Positions 1 through 14,264 of a stretch of DNA of 64,000 nucleotides are shown here, one piece after another. The DNA lies in the NCBI RefSeq assembly GCF_000024205.1, contig NC_013216.1, positions 2,170,001-2,234,000 of the forward strand, given 5' to 3'. The position numbers and the translations under genes were made by a program. The notes beneath the pieces were generated by a model, which saw nothing but the letters and a program-made list of their open reading frames with translations, ran no database searches and was not told where the DNA came from. Position 1 is the first letter of the stretch; each line of letters starts with the position of its first letter. This DNA comes from Desulfofarcimen acetoxidans DSM 771. GTDB lineage: Bacteria > Bacillota > Desulfotomaculia > Desulfotomaculales > Desulfofarciminaceae.

Positions 1-674
1 AGCGAAATACTACTATCCCGGTTAGACGCAGCCAGGTATTCAGCACGGCGGAAGACAATCAACCGGCAGTTGATATTCATGTACTGCAGGGTGAGAGAGA
101 AATGGCCCGTGACAACCGCTCGCTCGGCCAGTTCAAGCTTGACGGAATTCCTATGGCTCCCAGGGGGATACCGCAAATTGAGGTAACCTTTGATATTGAT
201 GCTAACGGTATTTTGAAAGTCAGCGCTAAAGATAACGGAACCGGAAAAGAGCAAACAATAACCATCAGCGGTTCCACCAGCTTGGATCAGTCGGAAATTG
301 ACCGTATGGTGAGAGAAGCCGAGGCCAACTCAGTTGAAGATAAAAAACGCAAGCAGGAAGTAGAAGCGCGCAATGAGGCAGATACTTTGGCCTACCAGGC
401 AGACAGACAGCTGAAAGATTTGGGAGATAAAGTTCCGGTACACGAGAAAGCACGTATAGAAGAATTGCTGAGCGATTTAAAGACTGCACTGAAAGAAAAT
501 GCACCGGTTGACCGTATTAGAGCCCTGCAGAGTGATTTGCAGCAGGCTGTCTATGCCTTATCACAAGCAGCTTATCAACAGCAGGGTGAAGCAGGTGGCT
601 GCAGCGGCGGCAACTGCGGTGGCGGGCACCGGAATGACAGCGGTGTGGTGGATGCGGAATTTGAAGAAAAATAA
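1..674 (+). CDS. dnaK: Chaperone DnaK (Hsp70), C-terminal part, 5' end outside window
   Basis: The reading frame is open from base 3 and enters the window inside the substrate-binding domain ([20 protein letters not shown], then [15 protein letters not shown]), which is unmistakable Hsp70. The ATG at 102 is internal, not a start. The helical lid follows and the protein ends with the usual VVDAEFEEK tail. DnaK is the ATP-driven cytoplasmic chaperone that works with the GrpE and DnaJ encoded next to it. The disordered linker before the tail is glycine-rich and holds two cysteines ([11 protein letters not shown]), which is unusual. The ATPase domain lies to the left of the window. Confidence 0.97.
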
Positions 675-923
675 TATTGAGGCAATATAATCGCTTTAGG
701 TAATATGGGAGTAAGGCATATTTCAACAGCTTCTTAATGAGGCTGCATCAAGGTAGTTTAAGATGAAAATACGGTCTGGCACTGGGATAAAGGTAATCTA
801 TCTTTGCCTCTTTGCCGGGCCGCAAACTAAAATAAATTATTTTTTATAATATATTGGAAATATGAATGTGAATTACATAATATAAATTTTACTCTCAAGT
901 AATACAATGAGAGGAGGGCTTAA
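675..923. other. dnaK-grpE intergenic region, no gene seen
   Basis: About 250 bp, AT-rich before grpE. No convincing ORF or terminator was found. A short dyad, CTCTCA ... TGAGAG with a 10-nt gap, lies just before grpE (892-913) and overlaps its ribosome binding site GAGAGGAGGG. It could be an operator or chance. The gap suggests grpE may have its own promoter. Confidence 0.4.
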
Positions 924-1394
924 ATGAAAAGAAGTCCGGAAAAACCGTTAGAATTGCAAGCAGCGGAATTGCAGCATGAATTGGAAGAAGAAAAAAACCG
1001 CCATTTGCGAACACTGGCGGATTTTGATAACTACCGAAAAAGAATGGAAAGGGAAAGGGATAGCATATCCTTAAGCGGCAAAAAACAGGTTATAAAAGAC
1101 CTCCTGCCTGCCTTGGATAACCTGGAAAGGGCTATGGGACAAGTACAGGAGGATTCTGTCAAGCAGGGTTTAGTGATGGTTCGCCAGCAGTTTTTCGATA
1201 TACTCAAGCAGCACGGGTTGGAGTTGATCGAATGTAAGGGCCAAATCTTTAACCCGGCTGAGCATGAGGGAGTCGGCTTTATAGAAGATGAGCATTGCCC
1301 GCCCGGGCATGTTGCAGAAGAATTGCTCAGCGGTTACCGTTTAGGACAGGAATTGCTTCGTCCGGCTGCGGTCCGTGTAGCGAAAGGCAGGTGA
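924..1394 (+). CDS. grpE: Nucleotide exchange factor GrpE
   Basis: A 156-residue protein with the GrpE layout: an N-terminal charged helix (ELQHELEEEKNRHLRTLADFD), the hallmark NYRKRMERERD, then the beta-domain ending in the GYRLGQELLRPAAVRVAKG signature. GrpE speeds ADP release from DnaK. The ATG at 924 follows a strong site (GAGAGGAGGGC). The protein is at the short end for the family because it lacks the long acidic N-terminus. It is followed at 7 bp by the dnaJ-like gene, so the two are cotranscribed. Confidence 0.96.
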   Translation: MKRSPEKPLELQAAELQHELEEEKNRHLRTLADFDNYRKRMERERDSISLSGKKQVIKDLLPALDNLERAMGQVQEDSVKQGLVMVRQQFFDILKQHGLELIECKGQIFNPAEHEGVGFIEDEHCPPGHVAEELLSGYRLGQELLRPAAVRVAKGR

Positions 1395-1401
1395 ATAGGC
1401 A

Positions 1402-2394
1402 ATGAGTGTTGCTTTTCAAGATTATTATGAAACTTTAGGCGTAAAAAGGGATGCTGCTGATAAAGAAATAAAATCAGCCTATCGCAAGCTGGCCCGCAAA
1501 TGGCACCCGGATTTAAACAGCGGCAAAGAAAAAGAAGCGGCTGAAGAGAAGTTTAAGCAGATTAATGAAGCGTACGAAGTCTTAAGTGACCCGGAAAAGC
1601 GCAGCAAATACGACATGTTGGGAGCTAATTGGCGCAGCGGGCAGGATTTCAGACCTCCGCCGGATATGGACGGTTTTCATTTTTATACCAATGCAAATGG
1701 TGGCGAGGGGGGCTTTAGCGACTTTTTTGAAATGCTTTTCGGAGGCGGTGGTTCCCCGTTCGGTCGAGGTGCCAGAGCAACCAGGCGTGGCCCGACGCGC
1801 GGTCAGGATGTGGAGAGTGAGATTGAACTGTCACTGGAGGATGCCTACAGAGGCGGGGAAAAATCCTTACAGCTGGCACAGCGGGAAGCCTGTCCGACCT
1901 GCGGCGGCACCGGTTATGCCCAGGATACTTTTTGCAATCGCTGCGGCGGCACGGGTGTTAAGTCCGGCACTAAAACTCTGGCCGTAAAAATACCGCCGGG
2001 CATGCAGGACGGCAGCCGCATTCGTTTAAAAGGCCAGGGCAGTGAAGGTATACAGGGCGGGCCCAGGGGTGACCTGTATCTCAAAGTGAAACTGGCGGAG
2101 CATCCCTTGTTTAAACTGGTAGGTAATGATCTGGAAACTGAGATTACTGTTCGGCCGGAACAGGCTGTATTGGGTGACAAAGTAAGTGTTCCCACTTTGG
2201 ACGGTCAGGTAACCATGAAGATTCCGGCCTCAGCCAGGTCAGGCATGAGATTGCGGCTGCGGGGCAAAGGCTGGCCTGTTAAAGAGGGCCGGGGTGACCA
2301 GTATGTGAGGATTAAAATAGATATACCGGGGCGACTTTCTGAGGAAGAAGAGGCACTCTACCGGCAATTAGCCGCGTTAAGGAAAGGGGTGTAA
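1402..2394 (+). CDS. dnaJ: DnaJ-type co-chaperone with a half-sized zinc finger
   Basis: A 330-residue Hsp40. The J domain (residues 5-70) has [11 protein letters not shown] and the HPD motif in RKWHPDLN. A Gly/Phe region with [10 protein letters not shown] follows, then the C-terminal substrate domains ([32 protein letters not shown]). Canonical DnaJ has four CxxCxGxG motifs. Here only two are visible (CPTCGGTG and CNRCGGTG, about residues 163-184), so it falls between DnaJ and the zinc-free CbpA class. Together with the MerR-like gene 4 bp downstream, the context fits both a CbpA/CbpM pair and a DnaJ/HspR pair. The start GTGAATAGGCAATGAGT uses ATG 1402. Confidence 0.92.
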
Positions 2395-2398
2395 TGCG

Positions 2399-2695
2399 GT
2401 GACAAAATATTACTTGCAAGTTTACTATCACACCCCATCAACCAGTGAGGAAGAAGTCTGGGTTGATGTGAACACTTTGGGTTTGCATCCCGATACCGCA
2501 CAACAGCTGGCTGACCTGGGTATTATAGAAATCAGGCAAGGGTATATCTCCGCACGCCAGGTAAAAAGGCTGCAAAAATTACTGCGGCTGCGCAGCAATT
2601 TAGGGGTTAACCTGCCGGGAGCGGCAATAATTTTAAATTTACTGGAACAAGTGGAAAGACTACAGGAAGAAGTTGAACAGTTAAAAAGGAGGTGA
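2399..2695 (+). CDS. MerR-family HspR/CbpM-like regulator of the chaperone operon
   Basis: A 98-residue protein with a MerR-type winged helix (VDVNTLGLHPDTAQQLADLG, then YISARQVKRLQKLLRL) and a C-terminal coiled coil (LLEQVERLQEEVEQLKRR). HspR of actinobacteria represses dnaK/clpB genes, and CbpM of proteobacteria inhibits CbpA. Both are small MerR proteins encoded directly after a dnaJ-type gene, and both fit here. The order dnaK-grpE-dnaJ-regulator-clpB resembles the HspR arrangement. The start is GTG 2399, whose ribosome site lies in the end of dnaJ (GGAAAGGGGTG). Function is inferred from family and context. Confidence 0.8.
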   Translation: MTKYYLQVYYHTPSTSEEEVWVDVNTLGLHPDTAQQLADLGIIEIRQGYISARQVKRLQKLLRLRSNLGVNLPGAAIILNLLEQVERLQEEVEQLKRR

Positions 2696-2728
2696 AGACC
2701 CGGACGGTATTTAGCTGCCGGGGATATT

Positions 2729-5326
2729 ATGGATATGAACCGTTTTACTAAAAAATCCGCTGAGGCATTGTCCGCAGCTCAACAATTTACGGCTTCCAGG
2801 CATCACCAGGAAATAACCGGTAAGCACTTGTTAGCCGTTTTGCTAACCCAGGAAGAAGGAATGATTCCCCGAATCCTGGAACATGCCGGAGTAAGCACCG
2901 ATCTTTTGTCTACTAAAATAGAAGAAAATTTAAAAAAAATCCCCGTGATCAGGGGTTATGACGGAACGCTGCACATGGGCACGGGCTTGGCCCGTGCCAT
3001 AGCCAGGGCTGAAAAAGAAGCCAGGGATATGAAAGACGATTATGTAAGTGTGGAGCACCTGCTGTTAGGCCTGTTGTATGAAGGAGAACAGGATACGAAA
3101 GAGGTGCTCAGGCAGGTAGGCCTGACACTTGACGCGCTGTTAAAATCCCTGCGCGAAGTGAGGGGCAACCAGCGTGTAACCAGCGATAGCCCTGAGGACA
3201 CCTATGAAGCGCTGGAACGCTATGGTCGCGATATTACCAAACTGGCCCGTGAAGGCAAACTAGATCCGGTTATCGGAAGGGATAACGAAATAAGACGCCT
3301 TATGGAAATTCTATCTCGCCGCACCAAGAACAACCCTGTGCTCATCGGTGAACCGGGAGTCGGTAAAACCGCCATTGCAGAGGGCCTGGCCCGGCGTATT
3401 GTAACCGGTGACATTCCAGAGGGGTTAAAGGATAAGATACTTATAGAATTGGATATGGGTGCTTTAGTGGCCGGTGCCAAGTACCGGGGCGAGTTTGAAG
3501 AACGTCTTAAGGCCGTGCTAAAAGAAGTTCAGAACTCGCAGGGCAGAATCATCATGTTCATAGATGAACTGCATACAGTAGTCGGAGCGGGAGCGGCTGA
3601 AGGGGCAATGGACGCAGGCAACCTGTTAAAGCCCATGCTGGCCCGCGGAGAGCTGCGTACTATCGGATCCACTACGCTGGACGAATACAGAAAACATATA
3701 GAAAAAGATGCCGCTTTGGAAAGGCGTTTCCAACCGGTTATAGTTAACCCTCCTTCTATTGAAGATACTATTTCTATTTTAAGGGGTTTAAAAGAACGCT
3801 ATGAAATACACCATGGTGTGCGTATAAAGGACAGCGCGCTGGTTGAGGCGGCAGTGCTCTCGGATCGCTACATTTCAGACCGTTTCCTGCCGGATAAAGC
3901 AATTGACTTAATGGACGAGGCAGCGGCCAAATTGCGTACTGAAATCGACAGTATGCCTACCGACCTGGATAAAATCACCCGCCGCATCATGCAGCTGGAG
4001 GTTGAAGAAGCAGCTCTGAGCAAAGAAAAAGATCAGGTTTCACAGGAGCGATTGGAAAAACTAAAAGAGCAGCTGGCCAACCTGCACAGCGAGTCTGACT
4101 CCATGAAAGCCCAATGGCAGGTAGAAAAGCAGGGTATTTCCCGCCTGCAGCAGATTAAAAAGGAAATAGAAGAAACTAAACAGGAAATAGAAAGAGCAGA
4201 GCGGGAATATGACTTAAACCGCCTGGCAGAGCTGAAATACGGACGTTTAAATGAGCTGGAGCGCCGGCTTAAATCAGAAGAGGAACTGTTGTCAGGAAAA
4301 CAAAAATACGGCATGCTTCTGAAAGAAGAAGTGGATGAAGAAGATATAGCCAGTGTTGTCAGCCGGTGGACCGGTATTCCGGTCAGTAAGCTGATGGAAG
4401 GGGAAAAAGAAAAGCTGATTCACCTGGATGAAGAACTGCATAAAAGAGTTATCGGTCAGGACGAGGCTGTGCGCGCGGTGGCAGACGCAGTGCTGAGGGC
4501 CAGAGCGGGCATTAAAGATCCCAACCGTCCTATCGGCAGCTTCATTTTCCTGGGACCTACCGGTGTGGGCAAAACAGAACTGGCCAGGTCTCTGGCACAG
4601 GCTCTCTTTGATGATGAGAAAAATATTATCAGGCTGGATATGTCCGAGTATATGGAAAAGCACACTGTTTCACGCTTGATAGGCGCTCCTCCCGGCTATG
4701 TCGGCTATGATGAAGGCGGTCAACTGACTGAAGCAATACGCCGCAAACCCTACTCGGTAATCCTGTTGGATGAAATAGAAAAGGCACACCACGATGTTTT
4801 TAATGTTTTGCTTCAGTTGCTGGATGACGGTCGCCTGACTGACGGTCAGGGAAGAACCGTTAATTTTCAAAACTCCGTGGTGATCATGACCTCCAACCTG
4901 GGTAGTCAGGAAATCCTCAACCACCAGGATCAAGGCGGCGACTATGAGCAGATGAAATCCGGAGTACTGGGCATTTTACGCCAGCATTTTCGCCCGGAGT
5001 TTCTCAACCGGGTTGATGAAGTTGTGGTCTTCCACGCCCTCAACCAGCCTCAGGTGAGAAAAATTGCCGCGATATTATTGGAGAAACTGGCTGAGCGTAT
5101 TAATGCAGGCAGCGGTATCAAATTGGAATGGAGCGATGATGCTTTAAATTACCTTGCCAATAAGGGTTATGAGCCGGTTTACGGGGCAAGACCCTTAAAG
5201 CGCTTAATTCAGCAGGAAGTGGAGACTCCGTTCAGCCGTATGCTGGTAAAAGGAGAGATTGTACCCAATCAAATTGTACTGTTAACGATTAAAGAAGGAG
5301 AACTGAATTTTAAGATTAAGTCTTAA
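2729..5326 (+). CDS. clpB: Disaggregase ClpB (AAA+ ATPase)
   Basis: An 865-residue full-length ClpB. It has an N-terminal Clp repeat domain (residues 1-145), a first AAA+ module with Walker A GEPGVGKT and Walker [10 protein letters not shown], and the long coiled-coil middle domain (about 400-530) that separates ClpB from ClpA/ClpC. The second AAA+ module has [10 protein letters not shown] and [11 protein letters not shown], with sensor residues in VIMTSNLGS and GARPLKR. It pulls polypeptides out of aggregates together with DnaK/DnaJ/GrpE. It is the last gene of the chaperone operon, 33 bp after the MerR-like gene. ATG 2729 encodes [10 protein letters not shown]. Confidence 0.98.
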
Positions 5327-6221: not shown

Positions 6222-6356
6222 AGGTTCACCGTCTTTCAATAACTTTATATTAAATTGCCGCTGTTAAAATAAAATTCTCACAGACCGGCTTGGCTCTACC
6301 AAATATTAAGACTAAGTGTTAAACTATAAAAAATAGACCCCAAGGAGGTTTTTTTA

Positions 6357-6719
6357 ATGGCCTTAACCTTTTATTGTTATTCTAAATGAAGCACCTGTAA
6401 AAAAGCCAAGGCTTGGCTAAACGGTAAAGGTATTACATACCAGGAAAAGGATATTGTGGCATCTCCGCCCCAAGCGGAAGAGATTAAAGACCTGGTTGCG
6501 CTAAGCGGTAAAGAATTAAAGAAACTGCTCAATACCAGCGGCAAATCCTACCGTGAGCTGGGCAAAGAAGCAGTGGCAGCTATGACGGAAGAGCAGTTGC
6601 TGCAGGCTATGCAGGCAGACGGAAAACTAATTAAAAGACCTCTTCTTTCTGATGGCCAAAGATTGCTGATCGGGTTTAACGAAGCTAAATATGAGGAATT
6701 TTTAAAAACCATAGTATAA
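6357..6719 (+). CDS. Selenoprotein of the ArsC/Spx-like thioredoxin-fold family (in-frame UGA = Sec11)
   Basis: Reading from ATG 6357 (site AAGGAGG, 6342-6348) gives MALTFYCYSK, then UGA at 6387-6389, then STCKKAKAWLNGKGITYQEK. The same frame runs to TAA at 6719, about 120 residues. Family members read x-C-x-x-C-K-K-A at this place, so UGA replaces the first, redox-active cysteine (Sec-S-T-C). The rest (LLNTSGKSYRELG, LIKRPLLSDGQRLLIGFNEAKYEEF) is typical ArsC/Spx-like protein. A hairpin stands 20 nt after the UGA. Without recoding only a headless 87-residue ORF (from 6456) would be made. The reaction is unknown; arsenate or thiol-disulfide reduction is plausible. Confidence 0.87.
6387..6418 (+). 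promoter_or_regulatory. Candidate bacterial SECIS element after the UGA codon
   Basis: Six-base-pair stem AGCCAA (6404-6409) and TTGGCT (6413-6418) with apical loop GGC. The loop starts 20 nt after the UGA and begins with G, as expected for SelB-binding hairpins in bacteria. A weaker lower pairing (ACCT with AGGT further out) may extend it. Confidence 0.7.
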
Positions 6720-6814
6720 AGAATCAGTTCTTTTTAAATTGATGGAGGCTCAAACAGGCAAGGCCATAAATTATTTAAACAGGTGGTTTAATAAGTGAAA
6801 TTAAAGGGCCTTGG

Positions 6815-11507: not shown

Positions 11508-11746
11508 AGCTATCAGAGGGTTGTTGATTTGTCAATAATATTATGGTACAGATACTATCGAAGAAAAAGCTAAAAGAAGAATTATTGAGCAATTCTGTCT
11601 ACAGCAGCCTAAAAAGTTTTGAAGAAATTTATATACGACCTCGGATTTTATGGAGGTTGTTTCGTATTTATCTAATAGAAAACTATAAAGGAGGTTGATT
11701 GGCAAGACTGTTTGTTATCGAATTATTCATTATGGAGGGGGAAAAT
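11508..11746. other. proA to SLH-protein intergenic region
   Basis: About 240 bp of AT-rich divergent spacer. An AAGGAGG stands near 11690, followed by a TTG-initiated run of 16 codons that would only extend the SLH protein before its signal peptide. No separate gene is seen. Confidence 0.4.
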
Positions 11747-13339
11747 ATGTTTAAGAGAGGTTTGACCTTATTTTTAGCCATGTCAGTTTTATTATTGAGT
11801 ACTTCCACAGCAGCGATGGCGAAAAATAATGGTAAAAGTAATGGCAACAATAAATTTAATAATGTAGTTAATTATAGTTTTAATGTAACAAAGCAAAATG
11901 CAAATAAAATTAAATTTAAGGACGTAGTTAATCACTGGGCAATACCCCAGATCAGTGCGATGAATATGCAGGGTATAATCAGTGGTTATCCGGATGCAAA
12001 TTTCCAGCCTGAAAAATCGGTAACCAAATACGAAGCATTAACGATGATTTGTAGGGCCCTGGGCATGAATCAAGATTATAGCGCTGATAACAAATGGTCC
12101 GGTGTTCCTGATTGGGCACGGGAGAGTATTGATTTTGCCGTGGAAAAAAATATTATTTCCGAAAAGGAAGCTAAAAATTTTGCCGGCAACACTCCGGCCA
12201 AAAGGTATGAAGTCGCAATATGGGTAGCACGGGCCGCCAATCTTGATTCCTACAATAATATTAACTTTGTTGACATGAATGATATTCCTGTTTATGCCAG
12301 ATCATACATAGGCTCTATGTACAGATGCGGCTACATGGTAGGTTATCCGGGAAATATGTTTCAACCCAACAAGCCTATTAAGAGGGCGGAAATAGCTGTC
12401 ATATTGTTTAATCTTTTGTCGGATTATAATCAAACCTCCCACTACAAAGTAGTAAAGGGGACAATTACCGATATAGACGATGACAGTGTTACTATCAATA
12501 ATAAAACCTATGAGATAACTGATGATACAGAAATTTATCTAAATAAAGAAAGCGCCGACTGGGATGATATTTCAGAAGGAGATAAAGCAGTTATTTATTT
12601 AAGCAGCAGTTCTGAAATTAATTATCTTTACGCTTATGATGACGATGAAGATACAGACGAAGATGAGTTAACAGTAGAAAGTTATACTCCGGCTAAGAAC
12701 AAGCAAAATGTTGACAGAGATATTGAGCAATTGGTTGTAAAGTTTAACCAGGATATTGAAGCTGAAGAAGATTATGAAGCCGTATTAGACGCTATTGCCA
12801 TTACAGCAACTGATGACAATGAAAATGTTGATGTAACACGCAGTATTGATGTGGAATCTGTAGAAATTAAAAATGATACTCTCTACATTAACTTAGAAGA
12901 CGCATTTGATTATGATGAAAATTGCTCAGTGACTATTGACAGTGGAGTCATTCAGGCAGAGGATTCCAATGATACTAATGATAAAATTGCCTGGTCCTTT
13001 GATATAGAAAGTGAAGATGAATTGAAAGTTGAAAGCTTAAGCCCTGCTGACGGTGCTGACAATGTGGATCAAGATACCGACGAGTTAGTGGTAAGATTCA
13101 ATAATGATATTGAAGCAAAAAACAGTTTAAGTGATATACGTCATGCTATTACTGTCAGTGACAATATTGATGTCGAATCTGTAGAAATAGATGATAATGA
13201 ACTTATTATAAAACTGGATGATGAACTTGATTATAATGAGGATTATACTGTTACTATTAATAGCGGTGTAATTGAAGCTGAATATTCCAGTTATACTAAT
13301 GACGAGATTAAGTGGTCCTTCACCACAGAAGATGACTAA
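11747..13339 (+). CDS. SLH-domain surface protein with two SbsA-type Ig-like domains
   Basis: A 530-residue exported protein. The signal peptide is MFKRGLTLFLAMSVLLLSTS ending TAAMA, with ATG 11747 behind GGAGGGGGAAAAT. Three S-layer homology modules follow (FKDVVNHWAIPQISAMNMQG..SGYPDANFQPEKSVTKYEA; WSGVPDWARESIDFAVEKN; FVDMNDIPVYARSYIGSM..GYPGNMFQPNKPIKRAE). A small beta domain comes next (about 255-320), then two similar Big_5/SbsA Ig-like repeats, each opening VES-x-P and ending I-x-WSF. SLH modules bind pyruvylated secondary wall polymer, so it is probably an envelope protein. The C-terminal half is very acidic. Another SLH gene follows 58 bp later. Confidence 0.88.
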   Translation: MFKRGLTLFLAMSVLLLSTSTAAMAKNNGKSNGNNKFNNVVNYSFNVTKQNANKIKFKDVVNHWAIPQISAMNMQGIISGYPDANFQPEKSVTKYEALTMICRALGMNQDYSADNKWSGVPDWARESIDFAVEKNIISEKEAKNFAGNTPAKRYEVAIWVARAANLDSYNNINFVDMNDIPVYARSYIGSMYRCGYMVGYPGNMFQPNKPIKRAEIAVILFNLLSDYNQTSHYKVVKGTITDIDDDSVTINNKTYEITDDTEIYLNKESADWDDISEGDKAVIYLSSSSEINYLYAYDDDEDTDEDELTVESYTPAKNKQNVDRDIEQLVVKFNQDIEAEEDYEAVLDAIAITATDDNENVDVTRSIDVESVEIKNDTLYINLEDAFDYDENCSVTIDSGVIQAEDSNDTNDKIAWSFDIESEDELKVESLSPADGADNVDQDTDELVVRFNNDIEAKNSLSDIRHAITVSDNIDVESVEIDDNELIIKLDDELDYNEDYTVTINSGVIEAEYSSYTNDEIKWSFTTEDD

Positions 13340-13397
13340 TAATAAGCAGTTAGTTTGTTTATCGGGCAACCGGTAAGATAAGGAGGAGCAAGACCGG

Positions 13398-14264
13398 ATG
13401 AAAAACGGGTTGATTACATTAGCAGTATTTATATGCCTGGTATTCAGCCTAAGTGGCGGTGTTTCGGCAGCAACAATTACTGATGTCAAAGGACACTGGG
13501 CAGAAGCTTCTATTAATAAATGGATATCTGCCGGTTATGTATCAGGTTACCCGGAGGGCTTGTTTAAACCGAATCAAAAAATAAGCAGAGCGGAATTCGT
13601 TACTCTGGTCAATAAGGCCTTTAAAAAGCAAAATCCGAACAGCCAGTGCAAGTTTTCTGATGTAAAGCAAACAGACTGGTTCTACCCAGGTGTGCTTGCC
13701 GGTGTTGCCGGTGGTTATATATCCGGCTATGAGGGAGGCACGTTTAAACCCGGCAAATTTATTAGTCGCCAGGAGGCTGCGGTTATAATTACAAGACTTC
13801 TTCAACTTAACAACGGCAGCAATATGAATTTTAAGGATGCGAACAGCATTCCCGGTTGGTCGGCAAGCGGAATTAAGGCTGTGGTTGCCAATAACATAAT
13901 GAAAGGCTATTCCGACGGCACCTTCAAAGCCGCACAGTCAATCACCAGGGCAGAGGCGGTAACAGCTCTGGACAGAGCATATGTTTCTTTCATGGCCTTT
14001 CAAGGAGTCAAAGGGTCAGTTAAAATGAACAATTGTCCTGTGGAAGGTGCTCTGGTTAAGCTCTTTGCACGGAATAATCCCAGTGTGCTGAAAGATGTTA
14101 GTACAACCGACAGTAATGGCATGTATAAGATAGCAGCCCAGCCCGGTTCGTACAATCTTGAGGTTAATAAGGACGGCAGCTTAGGCTATGCCTATAATAT
14201 CAGTATAGGCAAGGGTATTGCGACTTTACAGGATTTTTCACTGGTTAAGGTTTCTATAAATTAA
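13398..14264 (+). CDS. SLH-domain protein with a C-terminal carboxypeptidase-regulatory-like domain
   Basis: A 288-residue exported protein. Signal peptide MKNGLITLAVFICLVFSLSG ends near VSAA. Three SLH modules are clear: VKGHWAEASINKWISAGYVS..RAEFVTLVNKAF, FSDVKQTDWFYPGVLAGVAG..ISRQEAAVIITRL, and FKDANSIPGWSASGIKAVV..ITRAEAVTALDRA. The last 80 residues (GVKGSVKMNNCPVEGALVKL.. then TDSNGMYKIAAQPGSYNLEV) look like a carboxypeptidase-regulatory beta-sandwich. ATG 13398 follows AAGGAGGAGC. It is probably cotranscribed with the preceding SLH gene. No enzymatic domain is seen. Confidence 0.87.
   Translation: MKNGLITLAVFICLVFSLSGGVSAATITDVKGHWAEASINKWISAGYVSGYPEGLFKPNQKISRAEFVTLVNKAFKKQNPNSQCKFSDVKQTDWFYPGVLAGVAGGYISGYEGGTFKPGKFISRQEAAVIITRLLQLNNGSNMNFKDANSIPGWSASGIKAVVANNIMKGYSDGTFKAAQSITRAEAVTALDRAYVSFMAFQGVKGSVKMNNCPVEGALVKLFARNNPSVLKDVSTTDSNGMYKIAAQPGSYNLEVNKDGSLGYAYNISIGKGIATLQDFSLVKVSIN

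Follow-up and report, generated by a model that had tools for sequence, protein, structure and literature searches.

OseR (CD1777) of C. difficile is a repressor of flavodiiron and reverse-rubrerythrin genes which responds to O2, belongs to the YusI subfamily and carries a CXXV motif, and both its target list and its O2 response come from one species (PMC11481553). The absence of the Gly52 of Spx is a mark of this subfamily (PMC11481553), and the residue sets which separate true ArsC from YffB and YusI (N60 and K93) have been described (PMC5593903). Selenoproteins of the ArsC family with UxxS or UxxC motifs are known since 2005-2008 (PMC1088965, PMC2398784). In a selenoprotein catalogue of 2026, the ArsC-family entries are found only under TIGR00014 (UxxS "arsenate reductase") and NF041106 (UxxC "arsenate reductase-like"). 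A literature search that included few subscription papers returned no report tying Sec to the bacterial Spx/YusI family.

The locus studied here lies in a window of 64,000 nucleotides, part of the complete 4,545,624-bp chromosome of Desulfofarcimen acetoxidans DSM 771. From sequence comparison, it is almost certainly a selenoprotein gene of the YusI/OseR subfamily. The explanation as a whole, that is, a functional selenoprotein gene with a redox-switch role towards O2 or peroxide, is given a probability of about 0.9. ArsC-family selenoproteins being already known, the window protein adds a YusI-type branch.

The reading frame and conservation of its UGA

The features of the locus are as follows:

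6342..6348, forward strand: perfect Shine-Dalgarno sequence AAGGAGG, 8 nt ahead of the ATG, read from the sequence
6357..6719, forward strand: predicted selenoprotein gene, YusI/OseR subfamily of the ArsC/Spx family (TIGR01617), 120 codons and TAA, from profiles, homologs and predicted fold
6375..6377, forward strand: codon of Cys7, four residues before Sec (U-4), which is the additional Cys of the CxxxUxxC class and occupies the position of the ArsC His8; found in 31/33 UxxC Sec proteins and 0/25 UxxV/A/S
6387..6389, forward strand: UGA predicted to be read as Sec11, the redox residue, which is Cys in YusI, Spx, YffB and ArsC; 58 TGA homologs against 106 with Cys
6396..6398, forward strand: Cys14, candidate resolving Cys of the UxxC motif, from the sequence
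6404..6418, forward strand: predicted bSECIS hairpin, stem 6404-6409/6413-6418, loop GGC 6410-6412, which fits the model of PMC13188914
6456..6719, forward strand: truncated ORF of 87 aa, the call of a gene finder which stops at UGA; GTG start with a weak AAGGA upstream

The frame begins with the ATG at 6357, ends with the TAA at 6717-6719 and contains a single in-frame TGA, at codon 11 within the motif U-S-T-C-K-K-A, precisely at the redox Cys position where the first-pass annotation had seen it. With TGA as Sec, the translation is MALTFYCYSKUSTCKKAKAWL...LIKRPLLSDGQRLLIGFNEAKYEEFLKTIV (120 residues). The claim of homology on both sides of the TGA is borne out, since the Pfam ArsC match spans residues 6-115 (88.9 bits) and inclusion of the N-terminus raises the TIGR01617 score from 75.6 bits (tail only) to 119.9 bits (cut-off 75.05). 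As had been foreseen, a table-11 ORF finder reports only GTG 6456..6719, a form that would lack the first strand and the active site; the internal GTG and its weak Shine-Dalgarno sequence could give a truncated product. Scans for sigma-70 promoters and terminators stayed at chance level, and the sole stem-loop within the gene was the hairpin itself, on the other strand. The search of 6300-6800 against Rfam gave chance matches only.

Just upstream of the gene, a heat-shock cluster was recognized by eye (window 102-5326), with the end of DnaK, GrpE-, DnaJ- and CbpM-like ORFs and ClpB. Two ORFs at 11699-14264 have repeats which, also by eye, resemble S-layer homology domains.

All genes named in the first-pass annotation for Sec insertion, that is, selA, selB, selC and selD, are present in the genome. 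In detail, selA (605 bits) adjoins selB (381 bits), a tRNA with a UCA anticodon (TCA in DNA) is called tRNA-Sec by ARAGORN, and there are two selD genes (L122 and L123 of G000). Each selD has an in-frame TGA, and selenophosphate synthetase itself thus resembles a duplicated selenoprotein.

The homologs, taken from whole genomes of the organism's order and phylum, comprise 58 distinct sequences with exactly one TGA and 106 with Cys. In all 58, the TGA is located at the redox residue, and aligned with the Cys homologs it takes the place of the redox Cys. Ahead of 55 of these 58, the last 20 nt contain an SD-like motif. In the organism's class, full-length members of the YusI/OseR-type subfamily number 22 with UGA and one with Cys; three further matches, weak and free of a stop, are distant paralogs. 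The earlier view that selenoproteins of this fold are rare is thus only partly right, the UGA form of the window family being common in the organism's order and phylum. In the phylum sample, selA occurs in 38/38 genomes with a UGA form against 18/56 Cys-only genomes (P = 7e-13).

The eight codons ahead of the UGA evolve as protein, under purifying selection: in the two clades with the best sampling pN/pS is 0.15 and 0.12, whereas frame-shifted readings give 0.87-2.2. The value rises to 0.55 when all 58 genes are taken together, probably through saturation of synonymous sites. To explain the distribution of Sec and Cys, the tree requires 8 changes, of which supported branches force at least seven, and a near-identical sister pair consists of a Cys form (L106, TGC) and a UGA form (L108). 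In the branch which holds the window gene all sampled sequences are Sec, and the long-branched Spx and YffB references fall there too. Dozens of independent genomes have the UGA at this one residue, which rules out a sequencing error for the family and makes one very unlikely in the window gene. Judged by these comparisons, neither chance nor gene decay accounts for the UGA.

Some other copies deserve mention. In L231 and L232 (G109 and G099), the UGA region is followed only by the N-terminal half of a UxxV protein; these are broken or recombined copies. Locus L176 (G460:C145:9300-16466) has two UGA-bearing YusI-type genes separated by approximately 2.7 kb, and one of the two directly follows a flavodiiron gene.

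The hairpin downstream of the UGA

The bSECIS model describes a loop of 3-9 nt, a stem of 4-16 bp, a G in the first two loop positions, a spacing of 16-37 nt and an MFE of -7.5 or lower (PMC13188914). The hairpin of the window, AGCCAA-GGC-UUGGCU, lies within these ranges, with a GGC loop of 3 nt, 6 bp, a spacing of 20 nt and -9.2 kcal/mol (RNAfold, nt 0-50 after the UGA), the isolated stem giving only -6.4. The first-pass description of a 6-bp hairpin with a G-starting loop 20 nt downstream is accurate; the stem begins 14 nt after the UGA. Taken by itself, the window hairpin was rejected as significant (P = 0.11 against synonymous shuffles).

Across the family, stems of at least 6 bp with a G-bearing loop were found in 49/58 Sec genes against 3/106 Cys genes, with expectations from synonymous shuffles of 0.15 and 0.08. 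The fold z-scores of Sec and Cys genes differ with P = 8e-9, and as the sequences are related, this and the related P values overstate independence. Two registers of the stem exist among the Sec genes, one with a GGN loop at +21 and one with a GUG loop at +24 and an 8-bp stem; derived mainly from class members, they hold in 26 of the 33 held-out Sec genes. Even among genes which encode the same KA[KQR]xWL peptide, stems are present in 40/48 Sec against 5/95 Cys. Compensatory changes of stem pairs were also seen, for example C-G to G-C, G-C to A-T and T-A in the second register. The signal of the predicted hairpin is significant family-wide and not from the window alone. The Rfam SECIS_1 model (RF00031) had no match in this genome nor in control genomes and is thus uninformative.

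Family placement and gene neighbourhood

The placement in the ArsC/Spx family made earlier stands, as the protein passes the cut-off of TIGR01617 (arsC_related; Spx/MgsR/YusI-like), and it can be refined to the YusI/OseR subfamily, not ArsC or canonical Spx. The ArsC, YffB, YusI and Spx reference sequences used were checked against family models; no YusI-specific model exists. The AlphaFold2 model of the window protein (pLDDT 91.7) has its best PDB matches with 3gkx (Z 19.4) and Spx (Z 17-18), followed by YffB and ArsC. YusI, S. aureus SACOL0876 (2m46) and the "ArsC family related protein" of B. fragilis (3gkx) are the closest Cys homologs and folds, the two PDB chains having 38-42% identity and Z 15.8-19.4. 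The N60/K93/R94/P95 set of YusI is common to the window protein (N59 at the Asn60 position, K93, R94), which has Glu at the Gly52 position, whereas the active site of YusI, 2m46 and 3gkx is Cys.

Three other assignments were tried and rejected. As an arsenate reductase (TIGR00014) the protein scores 40.7 bits against a cut-off of 106, and of Arg60/Arg94/Arg107 only Arg94 is present. As a canonical Spx (NF002459) it scores 77.5 against 123; it shares with B. subtilis Spx the fold, the RP motif and Gly104, but the CxxC of Spx is UxxC, Gly52 and Arg60 are not conserved, and at 120 aa the C-terminal extension is missing. The ArsC family (seleno)protein model NF041106, which is the catalogue's home for the UxxC family, also rejects it (39.9 against 85). 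Like the catalogued ArsC-family selenoproteins, the window protein has the fold of ArsC, a bSECIS and, at the equivalent catalytic position, Sec, but it represents a TIGR01617/YusI-type branch which is not in the 2026 catalogue table. The "arsenate reductase 2" of the GOS data (ArsC 2, cd03032, UxxC) could overlap this branch. YffB resembles the window protein in N60/K93 and in having only one of the three arginines of ArsC, but it lacks a CxxC, the E. coli motif being CDTI, and its model NF008107 gives 66.3 against 121.

The tree puts the window protein among YusI-type sequences, in a poorly resolved part which also holds the long-branched Spx and YffB references, OseR being absent from the tree. 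From these residues, profiles and folds, the predicted protein is assigned to the subfamily of C. difficile OseR and B. subtilis YusI, and not to ArsC or canonical Spx. Comparison of homologs shows support for the decoding of UGA as Sec, for the fold and for the subfamily alike.

The Sec proteins have two architectures, CxxxUxxC, as in the window protein, and UxxV/A/S. No UxxV/A/S protein has the Cys four residues before Sec, and 23 of the 25 have no Cys at all. The proposal that a Cys at U-4 is exclusive to Sec forms was rejected, as 19/106 Cys homologs have it. OseR, likened here by its published description, has a single redox residue (CXXV) like the UxxV relatives; it carries Cys instead of Sec, whereas the window protein has UxxC and the extra Cys7.

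The commonest neighbour across Sec loci is rubrerythrin, on the same strand and approximately 100-460 nt downstream, in six genomes of one genus and in L179 of another family; in L200 it lies on the other strand at a distance of 1.2 kb. L100 and L104 (downstream) and L176 (approximately 20 nt upstream) have an adjoining flavodiiron (ODP) gene, and L204 and L206 are each directly preceded by a Fur-family gene. Of the Cys homologs, L093 has rubrerythrin nearby and L073 a flavodiiron-like gene. Within 3 kb, rubrerythrin or flavodiiron genes occur at 12/58 Sec loci (expected 1.7%) against 2/103 Cys loci; one genus accounts for many of the rubrerythrin cases, and the naive binomial value of 3e-10 becomes P = 1e-4 to 1e-3 when counted by lineage. 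The window gene itself has a YdjC-like protein and an FMN reductase as neighbours, both on the opposite strand, so that an operon joining it to rubrerythrin or flavodiiron is rejected; the rubrerythrin and ODP genes of this genome are elsewhere.

Other gene sets were noticed around Sec loci. In the UxxC loci L190, L193, L195, L197 and L199 the gene lies downstream of a radical SAM-like gene (five loci) and of a larger conserved ORF (four), a set possibly of AmmeMemoRadiSam type (by eye). The UxxA/S genes of L181, L186 and L191 are directly downstream of two genes which, by eye, resemble subunits of a 2-oxoacid:acceptor oxidoreductase. L230 (4030-4210; G052:C1:2423350-2423499) holds the C-terminal remnant of a Sec gene (model positions 69-118), approximately 0.7 kb from rubrerythrin; the UGA-bearing N-terminal half is lost and the gene has thus decayed in G052.

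Putative function and alternatives

Ribosomes would start at the ATG at 6357, and SelB with Sec-tRNA-Sec, guided by the hairpin at 6404-6418, would decode the UGA as Sec. The product would be a thioredoxin-like protein of the ArsC/Spx family with a Cys7-x3-Sec11-x2-Cys14 centre, which may act as a fast redox switch in the O2/peroxide response of this anaerobe. Oxidants would turn Sec11 into a selenenic acid, which Cys14 (or Cys7) would trap in a selenylsulfide; the reset would come from thioredoxin or a low-molecular-weight thiol. By analogy with OseR, the redox state may control the expression (or activity) of rubrerythrin, flavodiiron protein and the like. The reaction, which the first-pass annotation had called poorly known, can be constrained by the rubrerythrin, flavodiiron and Fur-family neighbours of the relatives. 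A role in the O2/peroxide response is somewhat favoured, because OseR represses the kinds of gene which Sec homologs adjoin. Within that response, a transcriptional sensor and a reductase are about equally probable.

The main rival to a regulator is a reductase serving rubrerythrin and flavodiiron enzymes. A catalytic thiol reductase of glutaredoxin/YffB type, whose Sec11 would attack a disulfide or persulfide, be it on a partner protein or on a low-molecular-weight thiol, and which would keep, for instance, rubrerythrin, flavodiiron protein or their partners reduced with no transcriptional role, has perhaps one chance in three. The operon-like closeness to flavodiiron and rubrerythrin genes fits an enzyme partner equally, Sec mostly serves catalysis, and YffB proteins bind glutathione and were proposed as thiol reductases (PMC3169414). 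N60/K93, typical of YffB/YusI (PMC5593903), are present in the window protein, and the Gly52 by which Spx contacts the alpha subunit of RNAP is absent. Against this reading, the UxxV/A/S class, almost always without other Cys, would need an outside resolving thiol, and the one characterized protein of the YusI subfamily, OseR, behaves as a regulator (PMC11481553). An arsenate reductase whose catalytic Cys12 has become Sec is very improbable: the fold, the family match and the conserved Arg94 would suit it, yet the TIGR00014 score stays far below the cut-off, and, compared with the true-ArsC sets of PMC5593903, Arg60 is Asn, Arg107 and Pro108 are missing, and His8/Asn9/Ser15 are not conserved.

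Explanations without Sec decoding fare still worse. A lone UGA in one genome could be a sequencing error or a nonsense codon in a former Cys protein, expressed at most from the GTG at 6456, and the tail ORF does have a weak Shine-Dalgarno sequence. Against this stand the UGA at the same residue in 58 homologs, selA in every sampled UGA genome, the hairpin and the purifying selection on both sides of the UGA, and the loss of the first strand and the active site that truncation would bring, and this explanation is highly improbable. The least credible of all is that UGA is an ordinary amino acid codon genome-wide or is passed by unprogrammed read-through. No support for either was found; moreover, 6 of the 30 window ORFs of at least 250 aa end in TGA, the sole in-frame UGA of the gene sits at the redox Cys, and Cys-form genomes often have no selA.

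The selenoprotein gene of the YusI/OseR subfamily with a redox-switch role is therefore the preferred reading. Tentatively, it may be extended to a widespread group of OseR-type O2/peroxide sensors of obligate anaerobes which use Sec as the switch, with one branch (UxxV/A/S) having a lone Sec and usually no Cys. If true, a large Sec branch has been overlooked in a family which ranks among the commonest small redox proteins of Gram-positive bacteria, and the genes of the branch are likely truncated or dropped in annotation. This branch offers sister pairs of Cys and Sec forms which differ by little beyond the UGA. Selenium would then be tied to the oxygen defence of anaerobes through a protein whose Cys relative acts as a regulator, and sensing redox state to control transcription would be a new role for Sec.
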